Shown: piece after piece, positions 4,601 through 41,780 of the stretch | Layout of the letters: each line of letters starts with the position of its first letter | Position numbering within the stretch: position 1 is the stretch's first letter | Origin: a virus | Virus record (IMG/VR): IMGVR_UViG_3300032322_001303 | Location: 1-43,463 of that record | DNA length: 43,463 nt | Strand: one strand, 5' to 3' | Made by a program: the position numbers and the translations under genes | Notes under the pieces: generated by a model | The model's database searches: none | The model's input: the letters and a program-made list of their open reading frames with translations, nothing else | What the model was told of the DNA's origin: nothing

Positions 4601-7600
4601 TATCTTTTTAAATAGCCAATCTCTTCCTGTAGTGCTATAAAGAATTGTTGCGTAGGTAGGTGTATTCCCTACTGCCACATATTTGCTTCCATCAAACACA
4701 ACACTTTTTATATCAATGTCTGAAGGGTAAAAAGGTTTTCCTTGTAAATTAACATCTAACTCAATGTTCTCATCAAAATTATTACCTAAATTTGTGCCAT
4801 TAGGATATTCTAATCCTGTCATTAACAATGGTAAATATTTACCGGGCATGTTAACAGTTGGCTGGTAATATGTAACAATTCTATCTAACGCATTGATGTA
4901 TGGATAGTCACTTTGTAATAACTCCCATTTAGCTAAATCAAAAGTTGCGTCCGTATTTGATACTATACATTTGTACAATTTATTATTGTATGCTACTAGT
5001 GACGCTGCAGGAGAAGCGAACGGCTCAGGATAAAATCCAATGTCTCCAGTAGTGAATATGAACGGATTAGACATTGTGTTCTTAACCGGATCTGTGAGTA
5101 TAGAATTGTTGTACAGTCTAACCTGTGTTGGACTTATTGGCACTGTATAATATTCTGCATATGCATTAGAACAAATTCCTGTAAGTTTATAGAAAGTTAT
5201 AGCACCGGTAAGAGCAAAAGTAATAGTTATTATTAAATCGTTAGCCGGGGACGTGCCACCTAGCGATGTACCAGGAATAGTAATTGTATCTCCTGTACTG
5301 TAGATATTTCCAAAATCTTTTATGTCAATAGAATATTCATTTAAAACAGTTTTGCCGTATATTCTAGGACTAGTAACCCAAATAATTGCACCTCCAGATC
5401 CGGAATCATCGTAAATGTACGGTGTCGTTAATCTCGCTGACTTATAAAAATAAAGTTTTGTTTTATTTAAATAACCAGGAGATAAACTACTATTTGCATA
5501 GTTTAGTGTAACAATAACATTGTTAGTGCCAGATTCTGTAGTGACTGCTGAAATAGGGATAGTTGCTCCCTGTAGGCTTGATGTAACTACAGTAGACGGT
5601 ACACCTTCTACCGAATAAGTTAGAATTGATCCAGCGAGTGTAGTGGTAAGCACTGTTATAGTACAACTATTCGTAGGTGCTACACCGCCTAAGTCATTAC
5701 CTGAAATTGTAATTACATCATTAGGTGCATAGCCTAAACCACCACTGTTTACATCTGCAGTGTAAACTCCAAGATTGTTTCCAGAGGAATAAAAGTTTGG
5801 TGGTTCATCTTCATTTCCATAAATCCATGCGTACACATCAAATATAGCGTCGGATCCTCCAGCTGGACTAACCGGTCCTGAAACAGAGGTGTATGGTATA
5901 GCTGTTGCTAACTTACTAGCATAACTTGCATCGTTGCCAATACTATTGTAAGTTGAAATATAGAATTGGTTAGGCTCCCAAACTGTTACCTCAGGTCTAT
6001 AGCTAGTTCTATCAAATTTTAAGACAGGAGTGATCTGTCTAGTAGGTGCATTACTTGACATTGGAATTAATCTAGCACCCAATGTTAGAACATGATCATT
6101 GCTTACGCTTCTACCCTGAATTAAGGGCAGTCTATGAGTATCAGTTATTGCATTAATTTTTGAAATATAAAAAGCTATTGCAGTTGGTCTATTTTGATTT
6201 GCCAATGTCACTTCTGGTTTTTGTAAGCCATATTCAATAAGTCCAATATAGTAATATTGTTTATCTATTAAGCCTAAAATAGGTAAAGTATTATTACCTT
6301 TCTTGTATTGCAATAAATCTCCAGTTTCAAATAACTCAAATGGAACATTGACAGTAAAATTAGTGTAATTTATATCAGCAGTATCAAAATAATGTTCTAT
6401 CGAAGGTTCTACTATTAATTCAGGTAAAACTTTGTATCCTTCGCCCGCATTCAAAACTGATACATTAACTACTTCGTCCCCTGATAGTTGCGCTTTTAAT
6501 GATGCCTGTACTTTTGGAGCAGGAAAAACTGATGTATCAACATAGGTAATAATATTAGGTGGTTCTGTATACCCTCTGCCTGAATATAAAACACTGACTG
6601 CAGGTAAGTCTATATAAATTGTTGCTCCTGGCATATGATCAACAACTTGTGTGTCTAAAGCACCACGTGTCAACCCAGATAATACACCTAAATCTCTATC
6701 TACATTAGTGTAACCAATGTATTCATTGTCAATTTTAATGACACCTGTTACAGGATAACCAAATGCATTATCTACTACAATTATTTTAGTTGCAACAGGA
6801 ACATATTCTTTTAATAACCCTATCAAATAATTTGATTTACCTTGTAACTTGACTCCGTAGTTGTTAAACCATTGATTATATTGAGGTTCATTCCATATCG
6901 TATCAGATGCGTTATATTGAGAAGCAGCAGTAGTTTCACTAAAAACTAATTCTGGTGTTACAAATGATTGTAGTTCACTATTCCATTGTGCTGGCAAATC
7001 AAAATCTGTGATATCCCCGTCATAAACATTAGTTTTAGTATATTTTAAACTAAAGTCTTTTAATTTTACTCTGTAAGGTTTAACTTCGTTAATATAACCA
7101 TATAAGAAATCTTCATTGTCTCTTTGGAAATTCTTAATCTGTTCTAACTCTCTCAATGTGTGATCAACGTCTAAGAAAGAAGTTTTATTTAACCAAGGTA
7201 AATAGTTACCAAATTCATCACTTTCTGTAATAATATAATTAAAGAGTAAAATCAATCCTTGATTTCTGTAAATTAGTAAATTTTCAGTAAATACTTCTTC
7301 GTTTAATCCACGGATTATGTAGTAAGTTTCTAAAGAAGGGAAACTATCATAAGGTTCGCTATCAAAGAAACTATCACCAAATCCTATTCCATTTATAGTA
7401 TAATCATAAAGAGAACTTTTTATTTGTATAGTTCCTAATTCTAATCCTATTCTTTCCCAATTACTATTCTTATAAATGTAAACTTCTCTTTTTCCGTTAC
7501 TGTTTGTATTAACTCCAGCAATCATATTTTCATATGGAGTTAATTTATCCAAATCATAATATTTAGATACATCAATATCAGTGCGGGTAGAATTGGAATA

Positions 7601-10600
7601 GCCCTCTGCCCACCAATTTACATATTCCCAATAATCATTTGTATCAAAATTGTCACCGGTAATAGTGAAAAATGCCGGAGCATTAGCACCAGTAAGAGCA
7701 ACTCCACCTAAGGACAAGAAACTAGGATTTTTAAGTTCAGTAATAGGAAACTGTAGCATCACTCTATTAGCGAACTGTACGTAATTTTCTAATGCATTTA
7801 GTCTATTATAGAAGAAGCTTTGGTTAGGTCTTAAACTTGTTCCAGTTTGTAATAATCTAGGTAATAAAGGGTTAGGAACAGACTGACCTTGTGCATCCAC
7901 ACCGGCAAAGCTATCTAACAATTTTTGATATAAACCATCCGGTCTTACAAGATTATTGTATAGTGTAGGTAGTCCAGGTAGAAAGTCCTCTGCGTAGCCA
8001 TCTCTTATTAATTTAAATTCTGTGTGTGCAACATCACTGCCACCATTTGATTTGTAACCTAAATGTAAGCTTGTAAAATTAGAACTTATAAATTCAAAGG
8101 CATTGTATAAAGCAAATACATTTTGCTTTAGTGGAGCTAAAAACGGAACTCCTGAAGTGATTGGGTTCGCAATATAAGACGAAATTATATTATCAGAAAG
8201 CTTTTTATCTTCTCTTAATATGTCGCCTATATCTTTGACCCAGTAGTAATACCTTGTGACTACTGTGCCGCCATCTACTACTTCATACAGGGTTGTGTAC
8301 GCATCAATATCATATACTGTTCCAGCACCAGTGTAATTAATTGGTAATACATCACTTTGAATCCATGTGTACACTGAAACTGCGCTTCCTGGAAATACTG
8401 TTCCCCAGTATTTGCTATTATAAACGGTATCATTTTGGTGATAGTCTATGAATTTTGTTTGTGATGTGTCAAACCATAATTTACCTATATAGTCTTGACC
8501 CCATACAACTTTTCTATTATTATTGCTATTATATCCTGCAGGATCTGTACTTGAAATATAATCAAGATTTTCTCTAACTACCCCTAAAAGTTTACCTTGT
8601 AGTGGATCAATATAATCTAAATTAACTATGGTTAAATTATTTAAATTGTTATATATTGAAACGATATGTAGCTTTTCAATATCTACTGTATTGGTTGGGC
8701 TTCTATAAATTGACCAGTTTGGTTTATTAGCAGTGTTTCTAAAAATATTCACTCGGCCATTAACAGTACCAGTTAAATAGTTTGGTGATCCAATAATAAC
8801 GTTATAATTGTTAAACGCAATATTATTTCCGTAATATGGCGCATTACCTACTGTAGTTATTGTATCGTTTACTAACTGTCCAAGAACAAATTTTCCTATA
8901 TTATCAATACTTTCATTATATGTACCTAAATAATCATATACATATGCTGATCCTGAATCAAGTAATACTTCAACAAAAACAGTAAAGTTATTGTCAAAAA
9001 TTGTATCGTTGGTATAATCCTCATCATCTGTAAAATCAAAATAAGTTTGAGTATATCTATTACTTGTTGGTGCTGTAATTACAACTGAATTTGATTCATT
9101 AAACTTTATTGCAGTACCATACTGAGTATTATTTTGTATATTAGGATCATGTAATTCTTGTGTCTTTTTATAATAAGTGATACCCAAACTTGCAAAATTT
9201 GCTTCTGCAAATACTGTTAGGTTTAACTTATCTTCAATAACATTTAAACTCTGATTTATCAACTGGATAACCAATTTGTTATCTACCGTTTTAGATGCTA
9301 CTACATTTGGAATATTTGCTTCATTGATTGCCGTAATAGCATTATTAATTCCAGTAGACGGTAACGTTACTAGATAACCATTTATTAAAATGTTTATTTG
9401 ACTTAATAAATTATAGGCGCTTGTTCCTGTAATAATACCAAACTTTTTACCAGCATTTGTATATCGTAATACAGTGCCTTCTGTTCCGGTAGCATCAACA
9501 ATATCAAATGGTGAACCAATTAACAATTCATTACCTAAATTATTGTTGCTTAGTCCTTTTCCGTATAATATACCTACACGTGGATTAGTAACTTCACTGT
9601 ACCCTACTAATGTTTGACTTAAAATAAAATCGTTACTTTCTACAACTATTAAGTCTCCTGCCTTAAGTACAATCTGTGGCAGAATAGTTAAAATATTTGT
9701 AGATATGGTATAAGTGCTATTATCTAAAACAGTACCATTTAGTAATACAGTTACAGAATTTGTCGGAGTCCACGCTAATGTAAAATCAGTTGCTATTGTT
9801 TGTATTGGAGTAAATCTATTTTCAAATACCTGTCTTACTCTATTATAAACATAAACAGCACCCGTATCAGTAAATGCACTAAAATCTTGATTAGGTGCAC
9901 TTACAAAAAGTTGTGTTCCATTATAATTTGTAGAAATATTTGTACCAAAATTTGTTGCTGAACCCGCATCCGTAATTGTCGCTACGCTAGTGTAGTTGTA
10001 ATATGCTCTGTATACAGTAGTACCTGAAGCTACGTTAGAGAAAAAATTTCCTTCAATAGTAAATGTTGTTATATTGGCGCTAGAACTATAATCACCTGTT
10101 ATTATTTTATATGTTTGAGTACCTGTTGTATTAGAAAAACTTACCATTTGTCCTTCTAATAACAATGATCTACGGTCTCCTGATACTTGAAATTGTGTTC
10201 CGTTTGCTACAATTGCTGAGGTTAGAGTATAACCTATGCTAGTATAAGTTAAATTTGTATTTTTTCTATATACAAAAACCTGTCTCGTAGAACTTTTGCT
10301 TACAAAAAAGTAATTACAATCATCTGACATTACAATTTTATCTGTAATGCCACTTATATTGAAAGAATTTTGCAATGCTACTGCTTCAATTTTTTCAGTT
10401 TGTACTAGTTCATAAATGTAGGCTGTACTTGTCGATGCAGATTTTAGTATTGCTAAGAAATTTTGTTTTTTATCCATGCTAGCACCAAATCCAGTTGGAC
10501 TTGATGATAGTGTAATTGTTTCGTCTAAATTCCAAAAATTTATGCTTGATTCATATTTGTATCTATAAACATTTCCTGCACCCGAGTCTGCTAAAAAGTA

Positions 10601-13600
10601 ACCTAATTTTGTATCATATGCAACACTACTTCCAAAAGAAGTTGTAGGTGTAGGTTTAGTAAATGTTGTAGCACCTTGATAGTTTATTGCTTTTCTATAT
10701 ACAGCCCAAGTACCGTCTATGTTTTCATCTACCCAAACTGTGCTTAAAACGAATTCCGTGTCAACTAAATTAAGATTACCTATATCTTTTGGAGAATTTA
10801 CTCTTTGATTTTGTAATTTAGATACGATGCCACTTCCTTCTACGTTTGAAAGTGATAATGGTAAACTTAAATCTATAATTACGGATGTTGCGTTACTAGT
10901 TCTTATTATGATATAAAATCCATCAACAAAAGTAGAATAGTTTAGTATGAGAATAACGTCATTTGTAGATAAGTTATGGGGCTTATCAAAAATCACAGTA
11001 CATGTACCATTTAAATTATTGATTACATTTACAATGGACACAGGTGATTCAGGATTTAAAGAGATTGTCGCATAAACTTTCCAATTACCCTGAAAGTCTG
11101 CTATCCAAATATATTGATTTTTTAATATGTCATAAATTGAAACTGCATTTTGATTTAAATTGCCTACTCTAAACGAATGTGCTACAACATCTTCAAAATT
11201 TACATACCCTGCAGAAGGTAACTGATTCATTTTATAAGATGGTAATAATGGTAATATGTTTATACTTTCAGGAACTCTACCATAGTTTGTTAAGCCATAA
11301 AGAGGAACTTCTTGCATTGATCCTTCTTCTGCTATTCCATTTATAATACTGACTATAGCAGGATTACCATTTAGTTTTTGTTCTTCTAATTTGAATTCAA
11401 TGTAATTTTGATCAAGTACACCACCGTAAAGTCCTATATTGATTGCCCAATTTTCATAGGTAGTATAGTTGATTACACCCGTTTGCAACGTGATATTTTG
11501 AATTGCAGAAGTAGCCTGTTTGCTGCCCTTTTCAACAATCATTGTTTTATAAAGATTTACCTGAGAGATATCGTCTAAGTTTGCAGCGACTAGATATTCT
11601 CTTGGTCTATATCCTATTAATGAAAAAGCCAAAAGATCGGCATCGTTTTCTAGATTAGCTTTATATGAATCATAATATAATGTGCTTTCATATGCTCTAC
11701 TACTTGCATTAGGTAACAACCCTTTTTGTATTTCATCATAATCTACTTTTACCCACAATCCCTGCTGGAAAGTTGCGGAGGGTTGAATTATCTCGTTTGA
11801 AGCATAGTAATTATTTTTATATTTTACAATAACACCCTTGGTGTATTTTGTATTTGCTTGCCATTCTACAACATTATCCTGATTTAAAATAAAACCCTTT
11901 GTATCAACTGTTCCGTCCCAAATAGCTGTTTTTGCACCTTTCAGTAACATACGATATTGTCTTAATCCTGTATTTGGATCGTATATCAAATCGTTAAATA
12001 AGGTTACATTGTCAAATACAATTGCATGTTCAATGTTACTTAAATTCGCATTAAAATAGGAAATAGTATCATCAACTTTTATTGGTATAGCAGAAAATTC
12101 TACTCCATCACGAACAATTGACATGTCCTTAATTTGTATAGGAATCAAGTTTTGATTTAATGCATAGTTTTGATCTTGTATGGTAAGTGGCTGTACAATT
12201 GAATTTTCTTTATTAATTGTAATTTGTTTAGCTAAAGGATTAATATTTAAAATAGATCCTGTTTCCCATCCTGCTTGAATCCAAACAAGAACCTCTTGAA
12301 TCATTTGATTCCAATTTAAAATTAAGTTATTTTCAACTTGATCAAACAATAGTCCTTGAGAGCTTAAATAATTACCGTATGAATTAATAAATTCAGCAAG
12401 TGCTTGTGGGGTTGTGAATTCAGTGCTGTAGGGCACAACCACAACTCTTTGACTAAAGTTCTTAGAAACTTTTACCGATAATGATCCCGAAGTAATGGTG
12501 TCATATTTTCCATTAATAATAGGTGCCAATACTTTAAAGTAAATTTTATTCTGACTATTTCCAAATACTTGATATCCTGTATCTGTTTTCTGAATTATTA
12601 CTGAACTATAAATTATAGAATCAAAGGGCTGATTTTCATGCAATAATACAGTGTAACTTTCATCTGGTATCAGTAGACTGTTGTTTTTGCTATTTGGAGA
12701 TCCCTTGTCTACATAAAATTTTAACAGTTCCTTATCACTGAAGCCAGCTAATCTGTAAACCAATCTTACGTCTAGGTTGTTTAAATATTGATTTAAAATG
12801 TCATAACCTGAGTTCCCACTACTTTGGATGTAGTCAACAATCCAATCTAAGTAACTATGCTGCGCCACTCCGCTACCATATAAAACTGAGCCGCTAGATG
12901 TAAATCTAAATTTATCGTTGACTAGATACTGATTAAATTCAGTATTATACTTGTAACTATCTAAATTTTCACCCAAAGCAAAAAACTTTGCAGGCTTACA
13001 AAGTGCTAGAATTTTGACTAAATCAAATGGCCAAGAACTACTCTTTAAATAACTATATTCTGCAGGACCCCAGTCTCCAACTTTCCAAGGTGTTTGAAAG
13101 GTCAGCTCATCATAATTGCCAATAACTGAATTCATTGGGTCAACAAGATTACCTAAGTCATTAACGGGTAAAACTTTAAGTAGACCAGGTCTTTTTCTAG
13201 ATTCAATTATAACAGGGTTACCATTATTATAATCGTATCCGTTCTCCATATCAGTCCATAGCACTAAGTTATTTTTAGTGTACGGTGGTAAACCATAATA
13301 ACTATCCCACCAACTAGGCTTATTTGTATATCCTATCATCTCCCAAGGCGTAAGATTTGGCGTTGTGGTGTCAAAGAACCAGTTATATAAACCTTTCCAA
13401 TTACCACGTTTTACGACCGTATTGTCTAATCTATTTGTAGCTTGATAATAGTTATAGGTGTAAGAATTAGTTGACACATAGTATTGTGACTTATAATCTA
13501 TTCTATTTTGACCTACCCAGTTTAAGAAAGATAATGAATAAAGTTGTGCAATTTCATCATAATTATAATTTGTTTTTCTAAATTGTCCAGGTAACACTTC

Positions 13601-16600
13601 ATCACTTGATATTGGAATTTTAGAACTAACTTTAATGTTATTATAAATTCTACATTCAAATTCAAAAATTACTTGATCTCTATAATCATTTAAATACCCA
13701 TTTTTGTAAGTTCCGTACAATGTTGTTAGTGAACCATCATGTCCTTTTATAAACCATGTAGGATTAATATAAGAGGTATCATATATCACTTCAGGGACAG
13801 TTGCGGGGTAGAATCCTAATTTTGTAGGTGTGTTAGGGACATAACTTCCGTAAGTTTGGTTATATTCATTAACTACAAGTACATCACCAATAACTAAATC
13901 TGTGTATACAGTAAGTAAAGGTTCATCTGAACTTATAATATAGTCTATACCTTTAATTAGTTGACTTTCAACTAAAACTCCTTCAACATTTCTAACAAGA
14001 TAAACTAAAACACTATTGTAGTTTGCTGATGTAAAATCATATATTTTACTTAATGAAAATTCAGACTGATTTACTTCTGCGTTAAAGGTATACCTATTCG
14101 TAATATAAGCACCGCGACTAGGCAACATGTCTGTCCAAAAGAACGAATTACTTTGTGTTTTGTATGAAGTAATTTCATTTATGGCATTATCTAAAATCGT
14201 AGAAGCAATTTGATAACTTTCATATGGAGTTTTGTTAACTACATCAACTAGTAAACTTTTAAATTTTACATATTCGGTTGAACTAAAATTTAACGCATCA
14301 ATTATATTATAATTGGCATTTTTTAAAAGTGCTCCTGCAAAAGACAACGGGGCACTATTTTGAATTATCTTTGTTCCATATCTAACTAAATTTGGTAAAT
14401 CTCTATAATTATTAGAACCAAATATTTGACCTTGTATCTGTTTACTATTAGTGCAAATACTTAGATAGTGATTTTTGATGTCTCCTAAAGCAGCACTCTT
14501 TATTTCTGAATTAAAAATGTTGTTTTCTAAATTTGTAGGAACAGTAAAATATGCACTTTTACTTACTGAATCACTATAAATTAAAATTTGAATTGGTGTC
14601 TCAATGATTGGTACAGCATTTAATGTTACAGTTGTTATATTATTTTCTACTGTATATGTAAAGTCAGTATCAAATAAAACATTATCTCTTACGTACACCT
14701 GTACTACTGGCCAAGCAGTTGATTCAACTGATTTTGCTGGTATATCACATATAAATGTAGGTTCACCATTAATAGGATTATAATTAAACGTAAATGCCTG
14801 ATATTGAAAACTCTCTGATATAGCGGTTTGCCACCCTAATTCTCTTGTATATGTTTCTCTATCAGAGTAGTTGTAAACATATCCTTCATTTACTTTTTGC
14901 GTAGTTGGTATGCCATTTAAAACATAATTAAATTCATCTGTGTTATAAGAAACTGTAAATTGAATGTCACCTATATTATTAACAGAGCTATACTTTAAAG
15001 GAAACCCTAAAACTGGATCGTCATTACCAGTTCCCACTGCATATTGAAATAACGATGAACCAATGAAGCTACTACTATTGTAATAATCCGTATCCCCAAA
15101 ACTTAATCCATTTTTATCAAATATATCAAACAATGGTGGTTGATTAACAGTCGTTTTTAGTTGCCCTGCAATCCAATTTACACCATCAAACCAATAACTA
15201 TTACCTTTTCTATTTTCTCCTAATAGCACCACAGTTTGATCAAGATCAAATATGTCACCATCTGCTAGTTTAGACAAAGTAATTACAGGTGGTGATTGAG
15301 TAATTAAAACGTTACCAGTTGCGTTATCTAATTGAATAAAAGATGATAAATTAGGATCAGTACTTAGACGTATAGAAGTAGTATTAGGTTTGTCATATAC
15401 ATAATATTTTGTAAATGCAGTTAAATTACCTATATCTTCATTAAGTGACACTAAACTACCTACAACAAATTGTGTTGAATCAGTAACTGTAAGCCTGTCA
15501 GTTGACGATGAAGTAGAACTAACTACAGTTGATGTTTGTGTAGCTATTGAAGTGGATACAAAACTAACTCTAAAAATTTTATTTCTTACGTTTACATCAT
15601 TATCGGCACTAAAAACTACTCTACATCCATTGAAAAGACCAAAACTTGATCCGTCAGGATAATACTGTAGTTGACTAGCTACTTGAGTAAATGCGTCTGT
15701 CACAGTAACATCAAAATAATCAACAGGACCTTTGGCTTGAGTGCCTAAATTAAATAACTTTAAGTTAGGATAAAATTCAATAATTGGTCTTTTACCTCTG
15801 GCTTCATTACTATTAATAACATTAAGTAAATTTTGGCTATTCGTATGTTTTATTGTTTCTTGTATAACCTGCGAATGAAACCATCTGTTACCACGTGACC
15901 ATGCATTTAAATTAGTTGCTGCTCTACTAATTGTGATGTAGTCTGGAGTTATGGGTGACTCAACTATGTCTGAATAAGGAGCTATGTCGTAAGGTGAAGC
16001 ATCATATGGTTCATAAACACTTTGAGAATATGATTCAGGAGTTACTAATGAAGAACTAGCTACAAGCTTTATACTTGACCCTACCCCCTCTACATAGTAT
16101 TGATCACTCTTATATTTTTCTGGTATAACATCTCCTGAAAAACTTATTTTAAGGCCGTTTGTGAACTTTACATTGTTAGGTGAGGTGTAAGTAGCTTTTC
16201 CTAAAATATTGGTTTCAACATTAATAAAATTTGCTTCATTATTGTCTATGATTTTTATTACGCCATATTTTTTATTATTTTGACTATCCTGATAATAAAG
16301 CGTATCCAGTGGAGCTGTCACTTCAGGAATTAATTGTATTTCCCCTGTATTCAAACGTACAAATTTTTTAGAAATGTATTCGACCCCTGCTAATACGGTA
16401 ATGTTTGTGTTTTGAGGTATTACATTGGTATACGTTAAATTAATTATTGGATCACCGGGAATGTCAGTTTCTTCGTATTTTATTTTAAAGAAATATTGAT
16501 TTACATTCACGACAGTTGCAGCATCATATCCTTCTGGATTTACTGTATCTTGATCGAATCCTAAATTATCGTAAAAAGTATCAATTGGTACTAGTTGAAG

Positions 16601-17491
16601 TGCAGAAGATCCAAAAAACATTAAAGTTTTATCAAGTAAATTAGTAGCACCGTCTATACTACCAATAGTACTTAATCTCTGTCCATGTATTAATTCAAAT
16701 GGCTGATCACTTACTAAATCTACATTTAAATTTCCTTGATAGTTTTGATTTTGTTGTGCGTCTGATAATGGTACCTGAAAGGTTATTACTCCTTCAGATA
16801 TCCCATTATTTTCTACTCCGTACACATCTCTTGAACTAGTATTTGGTCGATTAATAATTGTTCCGGAAGTTCCTGGAATAGTTTGAATCCAAAATTGTGA
16901 GGTTTGATCTACATTAAAATAGTAAGTACCGCCTCTCAACAACGTGATGGTTGGATTAAATTCTTCAATTTGAAAATTGTCCTGCACAAATGTAAATTCG
17001 TTGACTTGACTTTGTACATCAAAAAATGAAGTAAGATTGACTGGCAATGGCTCAATGTTGACAACATCAGGACCAAAAGGTAACCAATAGTATTGACTAT
17101 AATTTGATAACTTGTCGAGATTTGCAAAACTATCCCAACTGTAAAACTGATTATCAAATAATAACGAATTATTTGTAACTGGGGAGCTTTGTAATCTAAG
17201 AGCATCAATGATTTCAGGATATGTTATAAAATCTATTGCCCTAGATGTGTCACTTTTCTTAAAAACAATAGCAGGTTCTAATTGATAATCGGTGCGTGTT
17301 TTATTAATTTCAGGTATATAATAAGAATTTGGAGTTAACCCATACTCAAATCGTCTACCTATATAACCCTGTAGTTTTTCTAAATCTTGTTGTTGTACTA
17401 GTTGGTCTAGCGTGGCGGATAAGAAGTTATCATTCGGGGTCGTTTTAAATATTTCCGGAAGAAAATCAATTGTTCTAACTTGCGCTACCAT
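1643..17491 (-). CDS. Giant modular tail/baseplate protein (5282 aa)
   Basis: One uninterrupted frame covers more than a third of the window. It starts 14 bases after gp6, the position of gene 7 in T4. The N-terminus (RTIDFLPEIFKTTPNDNFLS, residues 6-25) looks like a baseplate-docking element. Residues about 1380-1560 contain a Trp-rich block (PSWWDSYYGLPPYTKNN). Residues about 2290-2920 carry FG-GAP-like blades (FGTNIS..NGTQLFVSAP, YGNNIAF..NVIIGSP). Residues about 3600-3750 hold RG..GT-type and Gly-Tyr-rich strands. Residues about 4268-4590 form a second propeller-like run (ILYSTTGRDW, LLISYDGFNW, IYWSTNASNW, ILYSGDGLIW, ILRSTNVIDW). Several VxxNGxx..Y.I..N.L.I modules recur. No enzyme motif is seen. 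Comparable giant proteins, some labelled VrlC-like, occur in marine T4-like phages. A gp7 equivalent with added propeller domains is plausible but unproven. Confidence 0.85.
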   Translation of the reverse strand: MVAQVRTIDFLPEIFKTTPNDNFLSATLDQLVQQQDLEKLQGYIGRRFEYGLTPNSYYIPEINKTRTDYQLEPAIVFKKSDTSRAIDFITYPEIIDALRLQSSPVTNNSLLFDNQFYSWDSFANLDKLSNYSQYYWLPFGPDVVNIEPLPVNLTSFFDVQSQVNEFTFVQDNFQIEEFNPTITLLRGGTYYFNVDQTSQFWIQTIPGTSGTIINRPNTSSRDVYGVENNGISEGVITFQVPLSDAQQNQNYQGNLNVDLVSDQPFELIHGQRLSTIGSIDGATNLLDKTLMFFGSSALQLVPIDTFYDNLGFDQDTVNPEGYDAATVVNVNQYFFKIKYEETDIPGDPIINLTYTNVIPQNTNITVLAGVEYISKKFVRLNTGEIQLIPEVTAPLDTLYYQDSQNNKKYGVIKIIDNNEANFINVETNILGKATYTSPNNVKFTNGLKISFSGDVIPEKYKSDQYYVEGVGSSIKLVASSSLVTPESYSQSVYEPYDASPYDIAPYSDIVESPITPDYITISRAATNLNAWSRGNRWFHSQVIQETIKHTNSQNLLNVINSNEARGKRPIIEFYPNLKLFNLGTQAKGPVDYFDVTVTDAFTQVASQLQYYPDGSSFGLFNGCRVVFSADNDVNVRNKIFRVSFVSTSIATQTSTVVSSTSSSTDRLTVTDSTQFVVGSLVSLNEDIGNLTAFTKYYVYDKPNTTSIRLSTDPNLSSFIQLDNATGNVLITQSPPVITLSKLADGDIFDLDQTVVLLGENRKGNSYWFDGVNWIAGQLKTTVNQPPLFDIFDKNGLSFGDTDYYNSSSFIGSSLFQYAVGTGNDDPVLGFPLKYSSVNNIGDIQFTVSYNTDEFNYVLNGIPTTQKVNEGYVYNYSDRETYTRELGWQTAISESFQYQAFTFNYNPINGEPTFICDIPAKSVESTAWPVVQVYVRDNVLFDTDFTYTVENNITTVTLNAVPIIETPIQILIYSDSVSKSAYFTVPTNLENNIFNSEIKSAALGDIKNHYLSICTNSKQIQGQIFGSNNYRDLPNLVRYGTKIIQNSAPLSFAGALLKNANYNIIDALNFSSTEYVKFKSLLVDVVNKTPYESYQIASTILDNAINEITSYKTQSNSFFWTDMLPSRGAYITNRYTFNAEVNQSEFSLSKIYDFTSANYNSVLVYLVRNVEGVLVESQLIKGIDYIISSDEPLLTVYTDLVIGDVLVVNEYNQTYGSYVPNTPTKLGFYPATVPEVIYDTSYINPTWFIKGHDGSLTTLYGTYKNGYLNDYRDQVIFEFECRIYNNIKVSSKIPISSDEVLPGQFRKTNYNYDEIAQLYSLSFLNWVGQNRIDYKSQYYVSTNSYTYNYYQATNRLDNTVVKRGNWKGLYNWFFDTTTPNLTPWEMIGYTNKPSWWDSYYGLPPYTKNNLVLWTDMENGYDYNNGNPVIIESRKRPGLLKVLPVNDLGNLVDPMNSVIGNYDELTFQTPWKVGDWGPAEYSYLKSSSWPFDLVKILALCKPAKFFALGENLDSYKYNTEFNQYLVNDKFRFTSSGSVLYGSGVAQHSYLDWIVDYIQSSGNSGYDILNQYLNNLDVRLVYRLAGFSDKELLKFYVDKGSPNSKNNSLLIPDESYTVLLHENQPFDSIIYSSVIIQKTDTGYQVFGNSQNKIYFKVLAPIINGKYDTITSGSLSVKVSKNFSQRVVVVPYSTEFTTPQALAEFINSYGNYLSSQGLLFDQVENNLILNWNQMIQEVLVWIQAGWETGSILNINPLAKQITINKENSIVQPLTIQDQNYALNQNLIPIQIKDMSIVRDGVEFSAIPIKVDDTISYFNANLSNIEHAIVFDNVTLFNDLIYDPNTGLRQYRMLLKGAKTAIWDGTVDTKGFILNQDNVVEWQANTKYTKGVIVKYKNNYYASNEIIQPSATFQQGLWVKVDYDEIQKGLLPNASSRAYESTLYYDSYKANLENDADLLAFSLIGYRPREYLVAANLDDISQVNLYKTMIVEKGSKQATSAIQNITLQTGVINYTTYENWAINIGLYGGVLDQNYIEFKLEEQKLNGNPAIVSIINGIAEEGSMQEVPLYGLTNYGRVPESINILPLLPSYKMNQLPSAGYVNFEDVVAHSFRVGNLNQNAVSIYDILKNQYIWIADFQGNWKVYATISLNPESPVSIVNVINNLNGTCTVIFDKPHNLSTNDVILILNYSTFVDGFYIIIRTSNATSVIIDLSLPLSLSNVEGSGIVSKLQNQRVNSPKDIGNLNLVDTEFVLSTVWVDENIDGTWAVYRKAINYQGATTFTKPTPTTSFGSSVAYDTKLGYFLADSGAGNVYRYKYESSINFWNLDETITLSSSPTGFGASMDKKQNFLAILKSASTSTAYIYELVQTEKIEAVALQNSFNISGITDKIVMSDDCNYFFVSKSSTRQVFVYRKNTNLTYTSIGYTLTSAIVANGTQFQVSGDRRSLLLEGQMVSFSNTTGTQTYKIITGDYSSSANITTFTIEGNFFSNVASGTTVYRAYYNYTSVATITDAGSATNFGTNISTNYNGTQLFVSAPNQDFSAFTDTGAVYVYNRVRQVFENRFTPIQTIATDFTLAWTPTNSVTVLLNGTVLDNSTYTISTNILTILPQIVLKAGDLIVVESNDFILSQTLVGYSEVTNPRVGILYGKGLSNNNLGNELLIGSPFDIVDATGTEGTVLRYTNAGKKFGIITGTSAYNLLSQINILINGYLVTLPSTGINNAITAINEANIPNVVASKTVDNKLVIQLINQSLNVIEDKLNLTVFAEANFASLGITYYKKTQELHDPNIQNNTQYGTAIKFNESNSVVITAPTSNRYTQTYFDFTDDEDYTNDTIFDNNFTVFVEVLLDSGSAYVYDYLGTYNESIDNIGKFVLGQLVNDTITTVGNAPYYGNNIAFNNYNVIIGSPNYLTGTVNGRVNIFRNTANKPNWSIYRSPTNTVDIEKLHIVSIYNNLNNLTIVNLDYIDPLQGKLLGVVRENLDYISSTDPAGYNSNNNRKVVWGQDYIGKLWFDTSQTKFIDYHQNDTVYNSKYWGTVFPGSAVSVYTWIQSDVLPINYTGAGTVYDIDAYTTLYEVVDGGTVVTRYYYWVKDIGDILREDKKLSDNIISSYIANPITSGVPFLAPLKQNVFALYNAFEFISSNFTSLHLGYKSNGGSDVAHTEFKLIRDGYAEDFLPGLPTLYNNLVRPDGLYQKLLDSFAGVDAQGQSVPNPLLPRLLQTGTSLRPNQSFFYNRLNALENYVQFANRVMLQFPITELKNPSFLSLGGVALTGANAPAFFTITGDNFDTNDYWEYVNWWAEGYSNSTRTDIDVSKYYDLDKLTPYENMIAGVNTNSNGKREVYIYKNSNWERIGLELGTIQIKSSLYDYTINGIGFGDSFFDSEPYDSFPSLETYYIIRGLNEEVFTENLLIYRNQGLILLFNYIITESDEFGNYLPWLNKTSFLDVDHTLRELEQIKNFQRDNEDFLYGYINEVKPYRVKLKDFSLKYTKTNVYDGDITDFDLPAQWNSELQSFVTPELVFSETTAASQYNASDTIWNEPQYNQWFNNYGVKLQGKSNYLIGLLKEYVPVATKIIVVDNAFGYPVTGVIKIDNEYIGYTNVDRDLGVLSGLTRGALDTQVVDHMPGATIYIDLPAVSVLYSGRGYTEPPNIITYVDTSVFPAPKVQASLKAQLSGDEVVNVSVLNAGEGYKVLPELIVEPSIEHYFDTADINYTNFTVNVPFELFETGDLLQYKKGNNTLPILGLIDKQYYYIGLIEYGLQKPEVTLANQNRPTAIAFYISKINAITDTHRLPLIQGRSVSNDHVLTLGARLIPMSSNAPTRQITPVLKFDRTSYRPEVTVWEPNQFYISTYNSIGNDASYASKLATAIPYTSVSGPVSPAGGSDAIFDVYAWIYGNEDEPPNFYSSGNNLGVYTADVNSGGLGYAPNDVITISGNDLGGVAPTNSCTITVLTTTLAGSILTYSVEGVPSTVVTSSLQGATIPISAVTTESGTNNVIVTLNYANSSLSPGYLNKTKLYFYKSARLTTPYIYDDSGSGGAIIWVTSPRIYGKTVLNEYSIDIKDFGNIYSTGDTITIPGTSLGGTSPANDLIITITFALTGAITFYKLTGICSNAYAEYYTVPISPTQVRLYNNSILTDPVKNTMSNPFIFTTGDIGFYPEPFASPAASLVAYNNKLYKCIVSNTDATFDLAKWELLQSDYPYINALDRIVTYYQPTVNMPGKYLPLLMTGLEYPNGTNLGNNFDENIELDVNLQGKPFYPSDIDIKSVVFDGSKYVAVGNTPTYATILYSTTGRDWLFKKISDVPINVTSLIYSGSFYVISAQNDSAPLLISYDGFNWVSVGSYTVYDDAPFDVTGFDTLSVETPNDELYDVVYYNNTYVSVGNNILSSINATAWGTGFSFGSRLPNVLNSVTYVAGSSSLSFEGFIAVGNGTSIIEGENTPSPVFSNQARVIISFNGTTWINTNQTFDSNLNVVFSSPTKIVAAGDNGKIYWSTNASNWTAATILGPAFNQQINHGIYALNTYVLICDNGFILYSGDGLIWNQTARISINNLNEIAFDGTYFIVVGENSTILRSTNVIDWENISFLVADEPEYNIKGETFLSGYGPEEMIPSIVSDNLQLTVKTTPGSLWDPATYENFGFNVLGLTLDLAQTTGFYFGNVSKYPTQIAVYVVSNSNTRATRIYGVNDVPTQTSLTRIQSIDWVNKSVTLTGTLSSTEQIYFEVYDIGGGNQEVKGTSDTTPIKLDTTNNVSYIDTNYPYKDGVYLYPLVYVNGIKQVINVDYKIEPDATNRIKIVFTSVIDNLTEYVSYALFGPASSNYQYCMPETQVFQYTSGPRTFTLTNSMSGANPSNAVVEVNGIRARNTTDYTIVGNTLTILPVIAATTIVSVTSFNDTTNQSFVTQSSTTIRVTPIYYVNTPATPVIITTAINPNFVNTDQVLIDGVKNIPEINNNIFYVRVLPTYVENAVTYYPFELYLDTNLSIPVVGNTYGTYFVNGAGSGGYIWKYSDTIQLTQPSFDVVDVNRLFVHINGTRVTPDNLRINQPNNRLSIMSPIALGETVIVTSYMPSPTPNELWYTLLVNKKGEMTIANSNIQNRTWLVEPLFPTDTTISVKDVSKLVDVTYEQIRVSYNTTTENLYCFLNYNIVDIVLLTVYNFTTGTELAKTSYYLNTVNSTTEVIFTAGVEDNDILEFTLRFGDTVIINGEKITFRGINIEENTITNIVRGAEGTAVLPVHEIYSNVLSLSTKDVLDPFYYDKVWNSDDYSANGDPLQISNSVPANFLKRD

Positions 17492-32557: not shown

Positions 32558-33127
32558 ATGATAAGTAAAAACATGCCTTCACCACAAAAAGCAAAAGGAT
32601 CTGGATTTGAGCGAGAGATAGCTAAATATCTCAGCGATTTATACGGCGAGAGTTTTATTCGTGCGCCTGGATCTGGAGCTTACATTGGAGGCAAAAATCA
32701 AAATCGCACACAAATTCTACATGAAGGACAAATTCGTAGCTTTAAGGGTGACATAGTACCCGGCGAGAGTTTTCCAAAATTCAATGCGGAATGTAAATTC
32801 TACAGCGATTTTTCATTTCATTTGTTACTTAGTGGAGAACATAAAGTACTTGATAGTTGGTTAGAACAGTTACTAGCTGTAGCTGATCCAGGTGATTTAA
32901 ACATATTGTTTATGAAGTTTAATCGCATAGGTCGTTATGTAGCAGTTCAATGTCAACTAACTTGGATTACTGATAACTTTTTCTTTTATGGAAGTAAAAA
33001 GTTTGGTGATTGGTACATTATGGAATTTGACACATTTATGGCACAAAACAAAGATATTATTAAATCTTACTCAGGCAAATCAATAGACACCACGTCAGCA
33101 GATTCAATTTTAACAATACAAATTTAA
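32558..33127 (+). CDS. PD-(D/E)XK nuclease, possible resolvase
   Basis: The 189-residue protein starts five bases after the nucleotidase with an AGGA ribosome site; a second Met at residue 6 is an alternative. It has the order of a PD-(D/E)XK nuclease: GSGFEREIAKYLSDLYG with a conserved Glu on helix 1, RAPGSGA, GDIVPGE with the catalytic Asp, and NAECKFYSDF providing Glu-x-Lys. The family includes Holliday-junction resolvases and replication-fork nucleases. Its place behind gp47/gp46 suggests processing of recombination intermediates, but the precise structure cut is unknown. It ends the operon; the region after it holds the candidate structured RNA. Confidence 0.8.
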   Translation: MISKNMPSPQKAKGSGFEREIAKYLSDLYGESFIRAPGSGAYIGGKNQNRTQILHEGQIRSFKGDIVPGESFPKFNAECKFYSDFSFHLLLSGEHKVLDSWLEQLLAVADPGDLNILFMKFNRIGRYVAVQCQLTWITDNFFFYGSKKFGDWYIMEFDTFMAQNKDIIKSYSGKSIDTTSADSILTIQI

Positions 33128-33130
33128 ACA

Positions 33131-33466
33131 ATTAGACGACCGAGTTGTCGGTCCTCCTTGAGGACGTACAGGTAGTGCTGTGCTGACGGATCTGGAGTAT
33201 GCTTAGGAGTGATCCTAAGGAACACCGACAGGGCAATCGTGTGGAGCGAACCCTGAATGAGTACATAGTTAACTTTGTCTTGCGACTATGTAACATGCGT
33301 TGCTGAGATGAATAATCTCACTACAGTCCCAATAAACCTTACAGAGCAACCGGTGGCACATAGCAGCGAAAGGGCTAGTTATGTGGGGAATAGACAACAT
33401 GGGTGACGGTCATGGCAAGTACCTTTACCATTGGTAGTGCTGAATAGCACTACCATGGCTTCTAAT
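33131..33466 (+). ncRNA. Candidate large structured RNA (unassigned family)
   Basis: No protein frame fills this stretch, yet it is about 48% G+C by hand count (164 of 340 bases) against about one third in neighbours. Hand pairing gives a closing helix 33131-33136/33461-33466 and a long helix 33145-33152/33224-33231. Perfect hairpins occur at 33202-33208/33213-33219 (GTGA loop), 33262-33269/33285-33292, 33304-33309/33315-33320 and 33433-33441/33446-33454. A further one at 33357-33362/33380-33385 encloses GAAA. GNRA loops appear only in plus orientation, supporting this strand. It lies after the nuclease gene and may be transcribed with that operon. I do not recognise the family. tmRNA and RNase P were excluded by missing core motifs. 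Confidence 0.6.
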
Positions 33467-33486
33467 CGGCAATATCTAAATAATAA

Positions 33487-33553
33487 TAATCCCGAGTATA
33501 TGAACGAACGAAGTGAGTGAATAACGAAGGGATTAGATGAACGAAGTTCATCT
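33487..33553. repeat. Convergent-gene spacer with two hairpins and AACGAA repeats
   Basis: TAATCCC (33487-33493) pairs with GGGATTA (33529-33535). Directly after, AGATGAAC (33535-33542) pairs with GTTCATCT (33546-33553) around a GAA loop. AACGAA occurs four times (33503, 33507, 33523, 33540). The second hairpin abuts the stop of the gp26 frameshift extension, so it may protect or end transcripts arriving from both sides. No T-run follows in either direction, so it is not a classical intrinsic terminator. Confidence 0.55.
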
Positions 33554-33783
33554 TAAAAGAATGGAATGTTTGTTTTCTTTGTTGTTTCTAGATTTTCTTC
33601 AATGATTTCATTTAATGAACCTATTTCAGTAGGACTCATATTTAATACATCTGTATAACTAACTGACCCGCGCATATACCAAGCTATTCGTTGTGCATTT
33701 TTCTTAATAGCTTTACACTCCTTTTCCATTCCGTCTATCAGCTTCCCAATACCTTCGGAGTCAAGGTATAGAAGCCTTAGACG
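33553..33783 (-). CDS. -1 frame extension of gp26 (possible gp51-like domain)
   Basis: After the slippery run at the end of gp26, the -1 frame stays open for 76 codons to a TAA at 33553-33555. It has no good independent start; an internal ATG at 33727-33729 has only a weak upstream GGAA. The peptide runs RLRLLYLDSEGIGKLIDG, then a Lys-rich helix, then AWYMRGSVSYTDVLNMSP and EIIEENLETTKKTNIPFF. It is helical, with the look of a tail-assembly chaperone C-terminal domain. Frameshifting would make a 351-residue gp26 fusion. In T4, gene 51 lies next to 26 and both act in hub assembly, so a gp51-like role is possible. Reading frame and signal are seen directly; function is inference. Confidence 0.75.
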   Translation of the reverse strand, partial: RLRLLYLDSEGIGKLIDGMEKECKAIKKNAQRIAWYMRGSVSYTDVLNMSPTEIGSLNEIIEENLETTKKTNIPFF

Positions 33784-33789
33784 AAAAAA
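33741..33789 (-). promoter_or_regulatory. Programmed -1 ribosomal frameshift signal
   Basis: The minus strand has the slippery heptamer T TTT TTC at 33789-33783, in the correct phase (GAT TTT TTC GTC TAA) and one codon before the gp26 stop. After a seven-base spacer, GCTTC (33775-33771) pairs with GAAGC (33745-33741). Inside it, ATACCTT (33769-33763) pairs with AAGGTAT (33755-33749) around a seven-base loop. The loop TCCG (33759-33756) could pair with CGGA (33733-33730) as a pseudoknot. All three standard elements are present at standard distances. Confidence 0.8.
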
Positions 33790-34607
33790 TCACTGACGTT
33801 TAATGTAAACATTTGTTCGTAATCATGACCGCATCCAGAACATTTAACCTCTAGTGGTTTCATCTGCGTAGTTTCTCTTAGGCTAAGGCTTTTCTCTTTA
33901 ATTTTCTCAACGATTCTTTTATCTGCATTTTGTAAGAAATCTAAAATATATGCCTTTTCAGTCACTGTAAATTCAGTGCTTGAAATGGATGCTATCGTGC
34001 TTGCAATAATGTCTAAGGTACTTAATGCTATGGTTTTATACAAATCACTTGATTTTTTATCACGTTCAGGGGTATCTTCCATACTAGTGATCATAGTCAA
34101 TGCTTTTTGTATTTCAAACTGTCTTATTGCGTTTTCAGTCAATTCTTTATAATTCAGTGGTCTAAACTTAACTTGTAAGTCACCCATTGTGATTGGATTG
34201 CTATAATCTCCTGCTACAAAATTGTTAAGGATAAAAGACAGATTGATTCCATACTTGAAATCTTCATCACATTTTGGGCAATGTGTCTCAATATCCATGT
34301 CATTTCCGTTAGTAGCAATACGCACAGCAACAAGTATCGCATCCAAATCAGTGCTACTGATTTTCCATGGGTCACGGATTGCAGGCACGCAACTTCGGAT
34401 AATGTCTGCTACAGCAGTTCCATTATACAAACTATCAGGGGTTTTGCTAGTAATCTCATCAATAGCAGTCATTGGATAAATTGGTATCTCTCCGTTATCA
34501 GGTATTGAAATAACATCCGGGGTATAGTCTACGCCCTTGCTGGGAAGCTTCAAATAAATGCTTGGTCTACGGAAATACTGCTTTAACGGGTTGTTTTCTA
34601 TTGACAT
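33777..34607 (-). CDS. gp26: Baseplate hub assembly protein gp26-like
   Basis: The 276-residue protein begins NNPLKQYFRRPSIYLKLPSK and contains EIPIYPMTAIDEITSKTPDS, NGTAVADIIRSCVPAI and a Cys pair in ETHCPKCDEDF matched by a later CSGCGHDY, probably a zinc-binding unit. This matches the T4 base plate protein family containing gp26. It is longer than T4 gp26 (208). gp26 acts in assembling the central hub. A GGAG five bases before the ATG supports this start. The gene is divergent from the tape-measure paralogs, each with its own CTAAATA box. Its end carries a -1 frameshift signal, so a 276-residue and a 351-residue form are expected. Confidence 0.85.
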   Translation of the reverse strand: MSIENNPLKQYFRRPSIYLKLPSKGVDYTPDVISIPDNGEIPIYPMTAIDEITSKTPDSLYNGTAVADIIRSCVPAIRDPWKISSTDLDAILVAVRIATNGNDMDIETHCPKCDEDFKYGINLSFILNNFVAGDYSNPITMGDLQVKFRPLNYKELTENAIRQFEIQKALTMITSMEDTPERDKKSSDLYKTIALSTLDIIASTIASISSTEFTVTEKAYILDFLQNADKRIVEKIKEKSLSLRETTQMKPLEVKCSGCGHDYEQMFTLNVSDFFV

Positions 34608-39394: not shown

Positions 39395-41170
39395 ATGGCA
39401 TATAAAAAACGTTTTTCTACTGTAAACACTACAGGTCAACTTAGTCCTATTTCAGGCAATAACAGTAATACTGGTTCTTGGAACGGTGCTGGCTATAACA
39501 ATGAACAAACTGGTGGCTGGAACAACGATCAATTTGGGTACAAGAATTACATGAGTAGACTTCCAGAAGTCTACACTGGTCACCCAAATCGTGTTGAGCG
39601 TTACAATCAATATGAAATGATGGATGTAGACGCTGAAATTAATGCTTGTTTGGACATTATTGCAGAGTTTAGTACACAGAGGAATGAACATAATAATACA
39701 CCATTTAGTCTAGAATTTAAAGAAGATCCAACTCCTCACGAAGTAGAATTATTAAAAAAACAGTTACAGCAATGGTGTAAACTCAACGATTTTGACAATC
39801 GTATATTTAAAATTTTTAGAAATACCGTAAAATACGGAGATCAGTTTTTTGTTAGAGACCCAGAAAATTTTAAATTATATTGGGTAGATGCAACTAAAGT
39901 AGGTAAAGTTATCGTCAATGAAAGCGCAGGAAAAGAACCTGAACAGTATGTCATTAAAGACATTAACGTAAACTTACAAAATCTAACAATAGCAGCAAAG
40001 ACTACAACGGATTTTCAAGCGCAGCCACCAACAGCAGGATACAGCGCACCATACAGTTATACAGTACCAAATGAGCCATATGGTACTACAGGAAGCAGAT
40101 TTAGTTTAGGACAAAATGAAGCAGCAATAGATGCTAAACATGTGGTTCATCTAAGTTTGACAGAGGGTTTAGATAGATATTGGCCGTTTGGTCAAAGCAT
40201 TTTAGAGAGTATTTTCAAAGTTTATAAGCAAAAAGAACTATTAGAAGATGCTATTTTAATCTATCGTGTATCACGTGCACCTGAACGTAGAGTGTTCAAA
40301 ATTGACGTTGGAAACATGCCAAGTCATATGGCTATGGCTTTTGTTGACCGTGTTAAAAATGAGATTCATCAACGTAGAATACCTACTTCTCAGGGAGGCT
40401 CTAGCGTATTAGATGCTACATATAATCCGTTAAGTATTAACGAAGATTACTTCTTCCCAACCACTGCTGATGGAAGAGGTAGCACTGTAGAGATGCTACA
40501 AGGTGGACAAAACTTAGGCGAAATTGATGACCTAAAGTACTTTAATAATAGATTAGCACGTGGATTACGTGTTCCTAGCAGCTATTTACCAACTGGTCCT
40601 GATGATGGTCAAGTACCATTGAATGATGGTCGTGTTGGAACTGCAATGATTCAAGAGTTCCGTTTTAATCAATATTGCGAAAGACTACAGAATTATATCG
40701 CTCAAAAACTAGATGATGAGTTTAAGTTATTCTTACGTTGGAGAGGATTTAATATTGACAGTGGTCTGTTTAATATTAAATTTAATGCTCCACAAAACTT
40801 TGCAGCATATCGTCAAAGTGAGTTAGACAAAGATCGTGTTGCAACATTCCAAACAATGGAAGCATTCCCATACATAAGCAAGCGTTTTGCATTACAAAGA
40901 TTCTTAGGATTGACTGAAGAAGAAATAACAGAAAATGAACGTATGTGGGAAGAAGAACGTGAATCTGAAGTCACAGACGATGCAAAAGGTAGTGATCTAC
41001 GTAGCATTGGTATCAGTGCAGGTGACATAGATACTGATTTAGAAACAGCAGAAGGTATGGGTGATCAGGAAGGGTTACCCCCACCTGAAGTAGCTCCTGG
41101 CGTCGCAGGACCTCAAGCAATGCCCGGTGGTGGAGTCCCAGCAGCAGCGGCTCCGGCCCCAGCTATATAA
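39395..41170 (+). CDS. gp20: Portal vertex protein gp20
   Basis: The 591-residue protein is the dodecameric portal through which DNA is packaged and to which the neck binds. Diagnostic segments include YMSRLPEVYTGHPNRVERYN, MDVDAEINACLDIIAEFSTQ, YWPFGQSILESIFKVYKQKE, the hallmark YRVSRAPERRVFKIDVGNMP and GLRVPSSYLPTGPDDGQ. A Gly/Pro/Ala-rich tail ends the chain (PGVAGPQAMPGGGVPAAAAP). T4 gp20 is 524 residues; the extra length is mainly at the two ends. The gene begins the head block but is cut off from the following head genes by a convergent homing endonuclease whose 3' end overlaps it by eight bases. Confidence 0.96.
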   Translation: MAYKKRFSTVNTTGQLSPISGNNSNTGSWNGAGYNNEQTGGWNNDQFGYKNYMSRLPEVYTGHPNRVERYNQYEMMDVDAEINACLDIIAEFSTQRNEHNNTPFSLEFKEDPTPHEVELLKKQLQQWCKLNDFDNRIFKIFRNTVKYGDQFFVRDPENFKLYWVDATKVGKVIVNESAGKEPEQYVIKDINVNLQNLTIAAKTTTDFQAQPPTAGYSAPYSYTVPNEPYGTTGSRFSLGQNEAAIDAKHVVHLSLTEGLDRYWPFGQSILESIFKVYKQKELLEDAILIYRVSRAPERRVFKIDVGNMPSHMAMAFVDRVKNEIHQRRIPTSQGGSSVLDATYNPLSINEDYFFPTTADGRGSTVEMLQGGQNLGEIDDLKYFNNRLARGLRVPSSYLPTGPDDGQVPLNDGRVGTAMIQEFRFNQYCERLQNYIAQKLDDEFKLFLRWRGFNIDSGLFNIKFNAPQNFAAYRQSELDKDRVATFQTMEAFPYISKRFALQRFLGLTEEEITENERMWEEERESEVTDDAKGSDLRSIGISAGDIDTDLETAEGMGDQEGLPPPEVAPGVAGPQAMPGGGVPAAAAPAPAI

Positions 41171-41780
41171 TTATTATCCAGTTTTTAGTAGAGCGATATT
41201 TTTTCGTTACTAACCTACTAACGCTACTTTGATCTAAATTGTACTTAATACGTAATTCATATTGTGTACAAGTAATGCATTCACCTGTAACTTGATTGAA
41301 AAAGGTATATCTCTTATTGTCTAAGTTAGGGTTAGCTGCTCCCTCATACTTTCCTTTTTTAGACTGACTCATTTTAATCCTAGTAGTAGCGGATTTGTGT
41401 ATGCCCTTCATTATTTCTGATTGATGTTGTTTCTGTTTATTTGATTGTGCCCTACCAAACATTGGATTTCTAGTTCCCTTTCTATCATCTGATGACGGTC
41501 CTTCCCCACCCTCAGTCTTGTTTCTCAGTATACCTGTCTTTAAGTCCTTCCTTCCGTACCACTTGATATATCTACGTTCTAGTGCAAATGCACCTACATC
41601 AGTAAGATTTGCTTCTAATATTGTAATTTTAGATTGGTTTTTGGGTATAGAAACGCTATGGTTCTTATCCCATGCTCTTTGTTTTGTTCCTTTTCCTATA
41701 TAATAAGGACTCCCATCATTGCGCAAATAGGCGTAAACGTAGTATCCTGCAGGAGGGTGAAATTTTGAATAAATAGTCAT
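41163..41780 (-). CDS. GIY-YIG homing endonuclease, free-standing (Seg-like)
   Basis: The 205-residue protein opens with the catalytic GIY-YIG fold: YYVYAYLRNDGSPYYIGKGT, where YVY and YIG are the name motif. ALERRYIKWYGR supplies the catalytic Arg/Glu region and NKTEGGEG follows. The C-terminal half has NUMOD-type DNA-binding repeats (RNPMFGRAQSNKQKQHQSEI, KKGKYEGAANPNLDNKRY) and a helix-turn-helix-like YELRIKYNLDQSSVSRLVTK. It lies on the strand opposite gp20 and the head genes and overlaps the gp20 end. This fits an invading mobile gene of the T4 seg type. GGAG eight bases before the ATG supports the start. Its target site was not identified; the uninterrupted gp20-head spacer is the usual guess. 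Confidence 0.88.
   Translation of the reverse strand: MTIYSKFHPPAGYYVYAYLRNDGSPYYIGKGTKQRAWDKNHSVSIPKNQSKITILEANLTDVGAFALERRYIKWYGRKDLKTGILRNKTEGGEGPSSDDRKGTRNPMFGRAQSNKQKQHQSEIMKGIHKSATTRIKMSQSKKGKYEGAANPNLDNKRYTFFNQVTGECITCTQYELRIKYNLDQSSVSRLVTKKYRSTKNWIIII

Follow-up and report, generated by a model that had tools for sequence, protein, structure and literature searches.

A compact RNA with two pseudoknots at a fixed site between convergent genes of T4-like giant phages

Large structured RNAs of phages

Few large, ornate RNAs are known from phages, and what they do is unknown. In the open-access literature that was searched, the nearest kind to the RNA described here comprises GOLLD, ROOL and OLE, and a description elsewhere is not excluded. 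GOLLD is more than 800 nt long; both it and ROOL often lie near tRNA genes, and they form oligomeric cages of RNA alone (PMC12286853). The present RNA occupies positions 33131–33473 on the + strand of the window, that is, the whole 43,463-nt stretch of DNA that was analysed, which is a piece of a T4-like phage genome. It resembles GOLLD in being a large, elaborate and pseudoknotted phage RNA of unknown function, but it is only about 340 nt long, lacks a covariance-model match and a nearby tRNA, and is flanked by other genes. Similarly, ROOL is a phage or prophage RNA that contains several pseudoknots and for which no protein partner is known, whereas the present RNA is shorter, does not lie beside tRNA islands and gives no match to the ROOL model. 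Being conserved, covarying, pseudoknotted, non-coding and phage-borne, it meets the loose criteria for large structured phage RNAs, and it is likely to represent a new family in the same broad category as GOLLD and ROOL while belonging to neither, although abundant discrete expression has not been shown. It thus adds a compact family with hundreds of homologs to this small group.

An earlier note, made before any database search, had left the family unrecognised, and this held: Rfam cmscan of the window and of two divergent homologs, at the gathering thresholds and at E ≤ 10, returned only chance-level matches. The compact pseudoknotted core, the long-range helices and the conserved joining strands recall the self-splicing group I and group II introns of phages, but neither the window nor the two divergent homologs matches these families in Rfam, and no intron-like interruption of a gene was met, the RNA lying between the same two genes in 293 loci, contig cuts aside. 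An ARAGORN scan of the 43-kb window detected neither a tRNA nor a tmRNA with its tRNA-like domain and tag frame. The guide RNAs of IscB and TnpB (HEARO, reRNA) are likewise structured RNAs of about 200–400 nt near a nuclease gene; here, however, the neighbour is a PDDEXK/RusA-like resolvase, there is no Rfam match and there is no sign of mobility. The remaining identified genes of the window are T4-like structural and replication genes, with no IscB or TnpB nuclease among them.

The locus and its homologs

The RNA lies where two gene series meet. The rightward series encodes the gp55 late sigma factor, gp47/gp46-like SbcD/SbcC recombination subunits, a 5'(3')-deoxyribonucleotidase and a RusA-like/PDDEXK_15 endonuclease (32558–33127, + strand), which is the 5' neighbour of the RNA. 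The leftward genes encode a small 58-aa protein (33553–33729, − strand), which lies nearest the RNA and which we take to be gp51-like from T4-like gene order and not from a family search, and a T4-like baseplate hub protein (33777–34607, − strand). Here, about 425 nt separate the endonuclease and gp51-like genes, and most relatives have a gap of up to about 570 nt. The earlier note had described a gene-free stretch of raised G+C at a late/recombination junction. The first part held: the ORF listing of the window shows none of at least 60 aa over the RNA, the corresponding gap is without genes in most homologs, and G+C is about 44–46% compared with 32–38% in the surroundings. The junction is correct only in the sense that the RNA sits where convergent genes meet, and the change of skew at the locus merely tracks gene direction. 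No conserved promoter was recognised ahead of the RNA.

A search of virus contigs with the endonuclease protein yielded 80 loci, each with related intergenic sequence, and DNA patterns of the conserved parts added further loci, including a divergent group. More than 290 RNA loci were gathered, and in a pool of 429 loci the 3' hairpin occurs in 164 distinct contexts; since the loci overlap, the independent viruses number between 164 and 429, or fewer. Non-redundant alignments contained 36, 76 and 92 sequences, with mean identities of 72%, 68% and 69%, respectively. In all 293 loci, except for sides cut by contig ends, the endonuclease gene lies 5' and the gp51/hub genes lie 3' of the RNA. Furthermore, all 25 additional endonuclease relatives, some of which share about 57% identity with the query, carry the RNA, one of them truncated at a contig end. 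R1, a covariance model of the core with 191 positions, found exactly one strong copy per contig in 12 of 12 contigs of 110–352 kb, which puts giant phages among its carriers; the sole additional match in these large contigs has an E value of 0.8, which is at chance level. Throughout a clade of T4-like giant phages, the RNA therefore occurs as a single copy whose place, flanked by the endonuclease and gp51-like genes, does not change. Such clade-wide, single-copy and fixed-site conservation argues that it is under selection, and, as hundreds of related phage contigs retain it once per genome at one unchanging site, its job is probably important to these viruses.

In PA5oct, Phosso, SCTP-2 and Atu_ph07, which are named relatives among the giant phages, sequence comparison found no match and the covariance search none that was significant; a DNA search of named phages found matches of 30–50 nt only, none spanning the RNA. 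The core pattern had no match in bacterial and archaeal genome contigs. In PA5oct and Phosso, the gaps beside the same RusA-like gene (L253:2494–3156 and L254:3000–3990) are gene-free and fold strongly (z −7.0 and −4.1); no similarity to the present RNA was detected there, and other structured RNAs at these places are possible. In two further contigs, an ORF is inserted between the RNA and the gp51-like gene, which by eye is homing-endonuclease-like in L056 and unidentified in L018.

Evidence for the fold and its strand

The + strand folds at −114.8 kcal/mol compared with −96.5 ± 5.6 kcal/mol for dinucleotide shuffles (z −3.3) and beats all 100 of them. The − strand likewise beats its shuffles (z −3.9), so the folding of a single sequence cannot assign the strand and on its own carries little weight. 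The consensus fold of the 92-sequence alignment reaches −139.9 kcal/mol, compared with −38 ± 6.6 kcal/mol for column-shuffled alignments. In the core alignment of 60 sequences, 96.9% of 3,296 cells are paired, including those of two pseudoknots, and pairing falls to 31–40% when the core structure is slid by 1–3 columns. Double-sided changes occur in 45 of the 55 core pairs of this alignment, which none of 500 shuffles comes close to.

Covariation was also scored against a tree-aware null that preserves the tree, the branch-wise substitutions and the column rates (E < 0.05 over the pairs tested). By this measure 45 of the 91 proposed pairs are significant, compared with 0–5 when the structure is slid by 1–3 columns. 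Only proposed pairs entered this count, and the alignment used to test them had also served in part to choose the structure. An earlier covariation analysis over all pairs, with a stricter correction, found 6–7 pairs significant, and almost all of these are Watson-Crick or G-U. The claim of a new large structured phage RNA has accordingly held, with a folding advantage, covariation among homologs and no remnant of a protein gene.

The strand is fixed by wobble pairs, which are frequent on the + strand and become A-C mismatches on the − strand. In P10, 97% of cells are paired on + and 89% on −, with 78 and 6 G-U cells, respectively; P1 is 83% paired on + and 70% paired on −. Taking the evidence together, we regard it as established that 33131–33473 encodes a real structured RNA read from the + strand.

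Helices and pseudoknots

The body (33131–33473, + strand; coordinates below refer to this strand) is conserved in the successive sets of 36, 76 and 92 non-redundant homologs, and its exact ends are undetermined. It is compact and consists of about twelve helices, P1–P12, and two pseudoknots. The P1 hairpin (33138–33153) shows significant covariation in four of five pairs. P2 (33154–33197) encloses the P3 hairpin, in which one pair covaries, and joins CUCC (33154–57) to GGAG (33194–97); all of its cells are paired and it is nearly invariant, a divergent homolog (L273) showing CUUC:GAAG by eye. A CCUCCUU segment was considered as an anti-Shine-Dalgarno sequence and rejected, as its CUCC sits in P2 and changes together with its pairing partner in that homolog. 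P4 (33202–33219), a hairpin with a mostly GNRA loop, covaries in four of five pairs.

The long-range helix P5 (33223–33355; 33223–27 with 33351–55) closes a junction containing P6, P7 and P8; it is 98.3% paired, and three of its five pairs have compensatory changes in the 60-sequence alignment. Within the junction, P6 and P6b (33229–33255) are 100% and 99.4% paired, with covariation. The P7a/P7b hairpin (33257–33296) is 99.4% paired with double changes in 10 of 11 pairs, and all eight pairs of P7b are significant in the tree-aware test. P8, with its inner hairpin P9 (33299–33350), is 95% paired with double changes in four of six pairs, and P9 is 82.5% paired. P10 (33357–33385) follows the junction and has double changes in all 11 pairs, nine of which are significant.

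The strand 3' of P10 pairs back into two of the preceding loops. In PK2 (33327–33389), positions 33386–89 pair with 33327–30 in the P8 loop (93% paired, double changes in three of four pairs, one pair significant in the tree-aware test). In PK1 (33275–33397), positions 33392–97 pair with 33275–80 in the P7 hairpin loop, which forms the 5' arm; all cells are paired in 60 sequences, five of six pairs show double changes and three are significant in the tree-aware test. The conserved unpaired segments AUGCGUUGC, ACUACAG and ACAGAGCAACCGG surround the nested pseudoknots. A small hairpin follows the PK1 strand, and then the strong P12 hairpin (33432–33455), whose sequence is nearly invariant by homolog comparison.

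Part of this layout had been anticipated in the earlier note. Its hairpins held, P4, P7b, P10 and P12 being conserved and P4 mostly having a GNRA loop, and a long-range helix does exist, the covarying P5. The proposed helix joining the two ends (33131–36 with 33461–66) failed, as three of its six positions are mostly unpaired in homologs (29%, 43% and 13% paired). The conserved body agrees with the proposed size of about 340 nt, and both pseudoknots had been missed.

Conserved elements outside the body

Conservation reaches past the first-reported ends of the locus on both sides, with a left limit at 33086 and a right limit at 33553. On the 3' side, two hairpins (33488–33534 and P13, 33535–33553, + strand) form a putative terminator or processed end, and they finish at 33553, the stop codon of the gp51-like gene. 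P13 is 99–100% paired and four of its eight pairs are significant in the tree-aware test, while the evidence for the 33488–33534 hairpin is a sequence observation. The hairpin word GAACGAACGAAGTGAGTG (window 33493–33522) shares about 93% identity, across 30 nt, with sites of Enterobacter and Klebsiella phages, and it is possibly a widespread phage hairpin.

On the 5' side, an 11-nt mini-hairpin, GAC-ACCAC-GUC (33086–33096, + strand), lies within the endonuclease coding sequence, at its 3' end. Among homologs it reads GAC-ACMAN-GUC and falls within the last codons of the gene, which are near-fixed: the Asp codon is GAC in 61 of 62 cases, while Asp codons elsewhere in the gene are mixed. Its stem covaries (GUC/GAC, GGC/GCC, GAG/CUC), and no partner for its loop was found. 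One contig, L444, is without the endonuclease gene, yet it has the RNA together with two non-coding copies of the mini-hairpin just 5' of it, which argues that the mini-hairpin belongs with the RNA locus and not with the protein. It remains conceivable that the copy in the endonuclease gene is a separate regulatory element. The ORFs that replace the endonuclease in this contig (L444:5786–7246) appear radical-SAM-like and GIY-YIG-like by eye, without a family search.

Repeats that drift together around P12

P12 is flanked on the + strand by two matching segments, N-C-AU-GGCAA on its 5' side (33410–33418) and N-C-GGCAA on its 3' side (33466–33472). In 72 of 76 homologs, compared with 37.9 expected, positions 33410 and 33466 hold the same base, which may be G, U, C or A, and the tree-aware score for this pair of positions is E ~0.04 over all pairs. 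The repeat words agree within a sequence and differ between lineages; they are mostly GGCAA, with GGUAAU, AGCAAU, CAGCAU, GGCAUGU, GAUAAU and GUUGAA in other lineages. In 43 deviant contexts, the sum of matches to the own copy is 230, compared with 192 ± 5.8 after permutation, and none of 5,000 permutations reaches it; the permutation tests carry no correction for relatedness or shared ancestry.

Inside the RNA, no consistent complementary third strand was found for the repeats, and pairing of 33182–86 with 33466–70 was rejected because it fails in many homologs. Matched sites flanking a hairpin also recall a ribosome bypass in the style of T4 gene 60, which was rejected since by eye no conserved reading frame runs through the region. 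Codon-like contacts with tRNA are unsupported, the best-matched base (33410/33466) lying outside the codon-like triplet. As the copies match each other and yet drift together, they may touch a common partner, in trans or a protein; this is an inference, and no such partner has been identified. An unrecognised cis interaction could also account for them. Repeat copies that change in step are a rare clue to function.

Possible roles of the RNA

We favour, as somewhat more likely than not, a separate RNA that is produced where the replication/recombination gene series ends and that binds a partner through the P12 region. This is inferred without transcript data. The RNA would be made from the 3' end of the gp55-gp47-gp46-nucleotidase-endonuclease series, by read-through or processing; an upstream origin is suggested by the lack of a recognised promoter and by the conserved structural element inside the last gene. 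Its 3' end would lie at the hairpins of 33488–33553, and it would then work in trans as a preformed scaffold holding a partner. The likeliest contact site would be the near-invariant P12 with its two matched flanking segments, because these segments co-drift between lineages and have no third strand within the RNA.

The main rival, which remains possible, is a cis-acting 3' UTR without any life as a separate RNA, whose fold protects or regulates the gp46/endonuclease messenger and, jointly with the 3' hairpins, terminates convergent transcription. This reading is supported by the position of the RNA directly 3' of the endonuclease wherever that side is present among the 293 loci, by the conserved hairpins at its end between convergent genes, and by the overlap of the mini-hairpin with the end of the coding region; the strict synteny would suit a cis-acting element too. 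Against it, the size and intricacy of the RNA, with two pseudoknots and long conserved unpaired stretches, are far above the needs of a stabiliser or terminator, and L444 kept the RNA after its endonuclease gene was replaced, which argues against a mere endonuclease 3' UTR. A ribozyme, whose double-pseudoknot core would cleave or join RNA, for instance for self-release from the upstream messenger, has little direct support and seems unlikely: the conserved unpaired segments around nested pseudoknots do resemble catalytic or ligand-binding RNAs, but no ribozyme or intron of the Rfam catalogue is similar even at E ≤ 10, no conserved cut site has been identified and no gene is interrupted.

R-loop priming is exemplified by T4 origins and ColE1 RNA II. 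A replication-origin RNA, that is, a structured transcript priming DNA synthesis as an R-loop, could be read from the single copy at a fixed site near recombination genes and from the hairpin between direct repeats, but the skew change only follows gene direction and nothing indicates pairing with DNA, which leaves this option with little direct support and very improbable. A DNA-level element, such as a protein-binding or packaging site whose inverted repeats mimic RNA helices, would suit the palindromic P12 and the direct repeats; it is very strongly disfavoured, as G-U is accepted on one strand only and the pseudoknots covary, neither of which is expected of double-stranded DNA.

A bolder form of the favoured reading, in which a partner-binding RNA acts in trans, can be entertained as a possibility: as a new sort of phage RNA machine, a preformed double-pseudoknot scaffold would show two copies of a short recognition sequence, one on each flank of a fixed hairpin and evolving in concert, to a lineage-specific nucleic acid or protein partner, and it may even be catalytic. 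At about 340 nt, the RNA is small enough for probing and cryo-EM, and it offers a testable system for the roles of such RNAs in giant-phage infection.

Other features of the window

The T4 late-promoter word TATAAATA was found 0 times in window 1–43463, compared with 8.7 expected. Words resembling TAAATAYTAA stand ahead of several late genes (ending or starting at 816, 20862, 28229, 34688 and 39395); they may be a variant late promoter, the T4 word being avoided. The end of the portal gene is overlapped, on the other strand, by an ORF (window 41163–41780) that has weak similarity to homing endonucleases. In addition, the window contains an ORF of 5,282 aa (1643–17491), residues 1–1,000 of which match a virion structural protein family.
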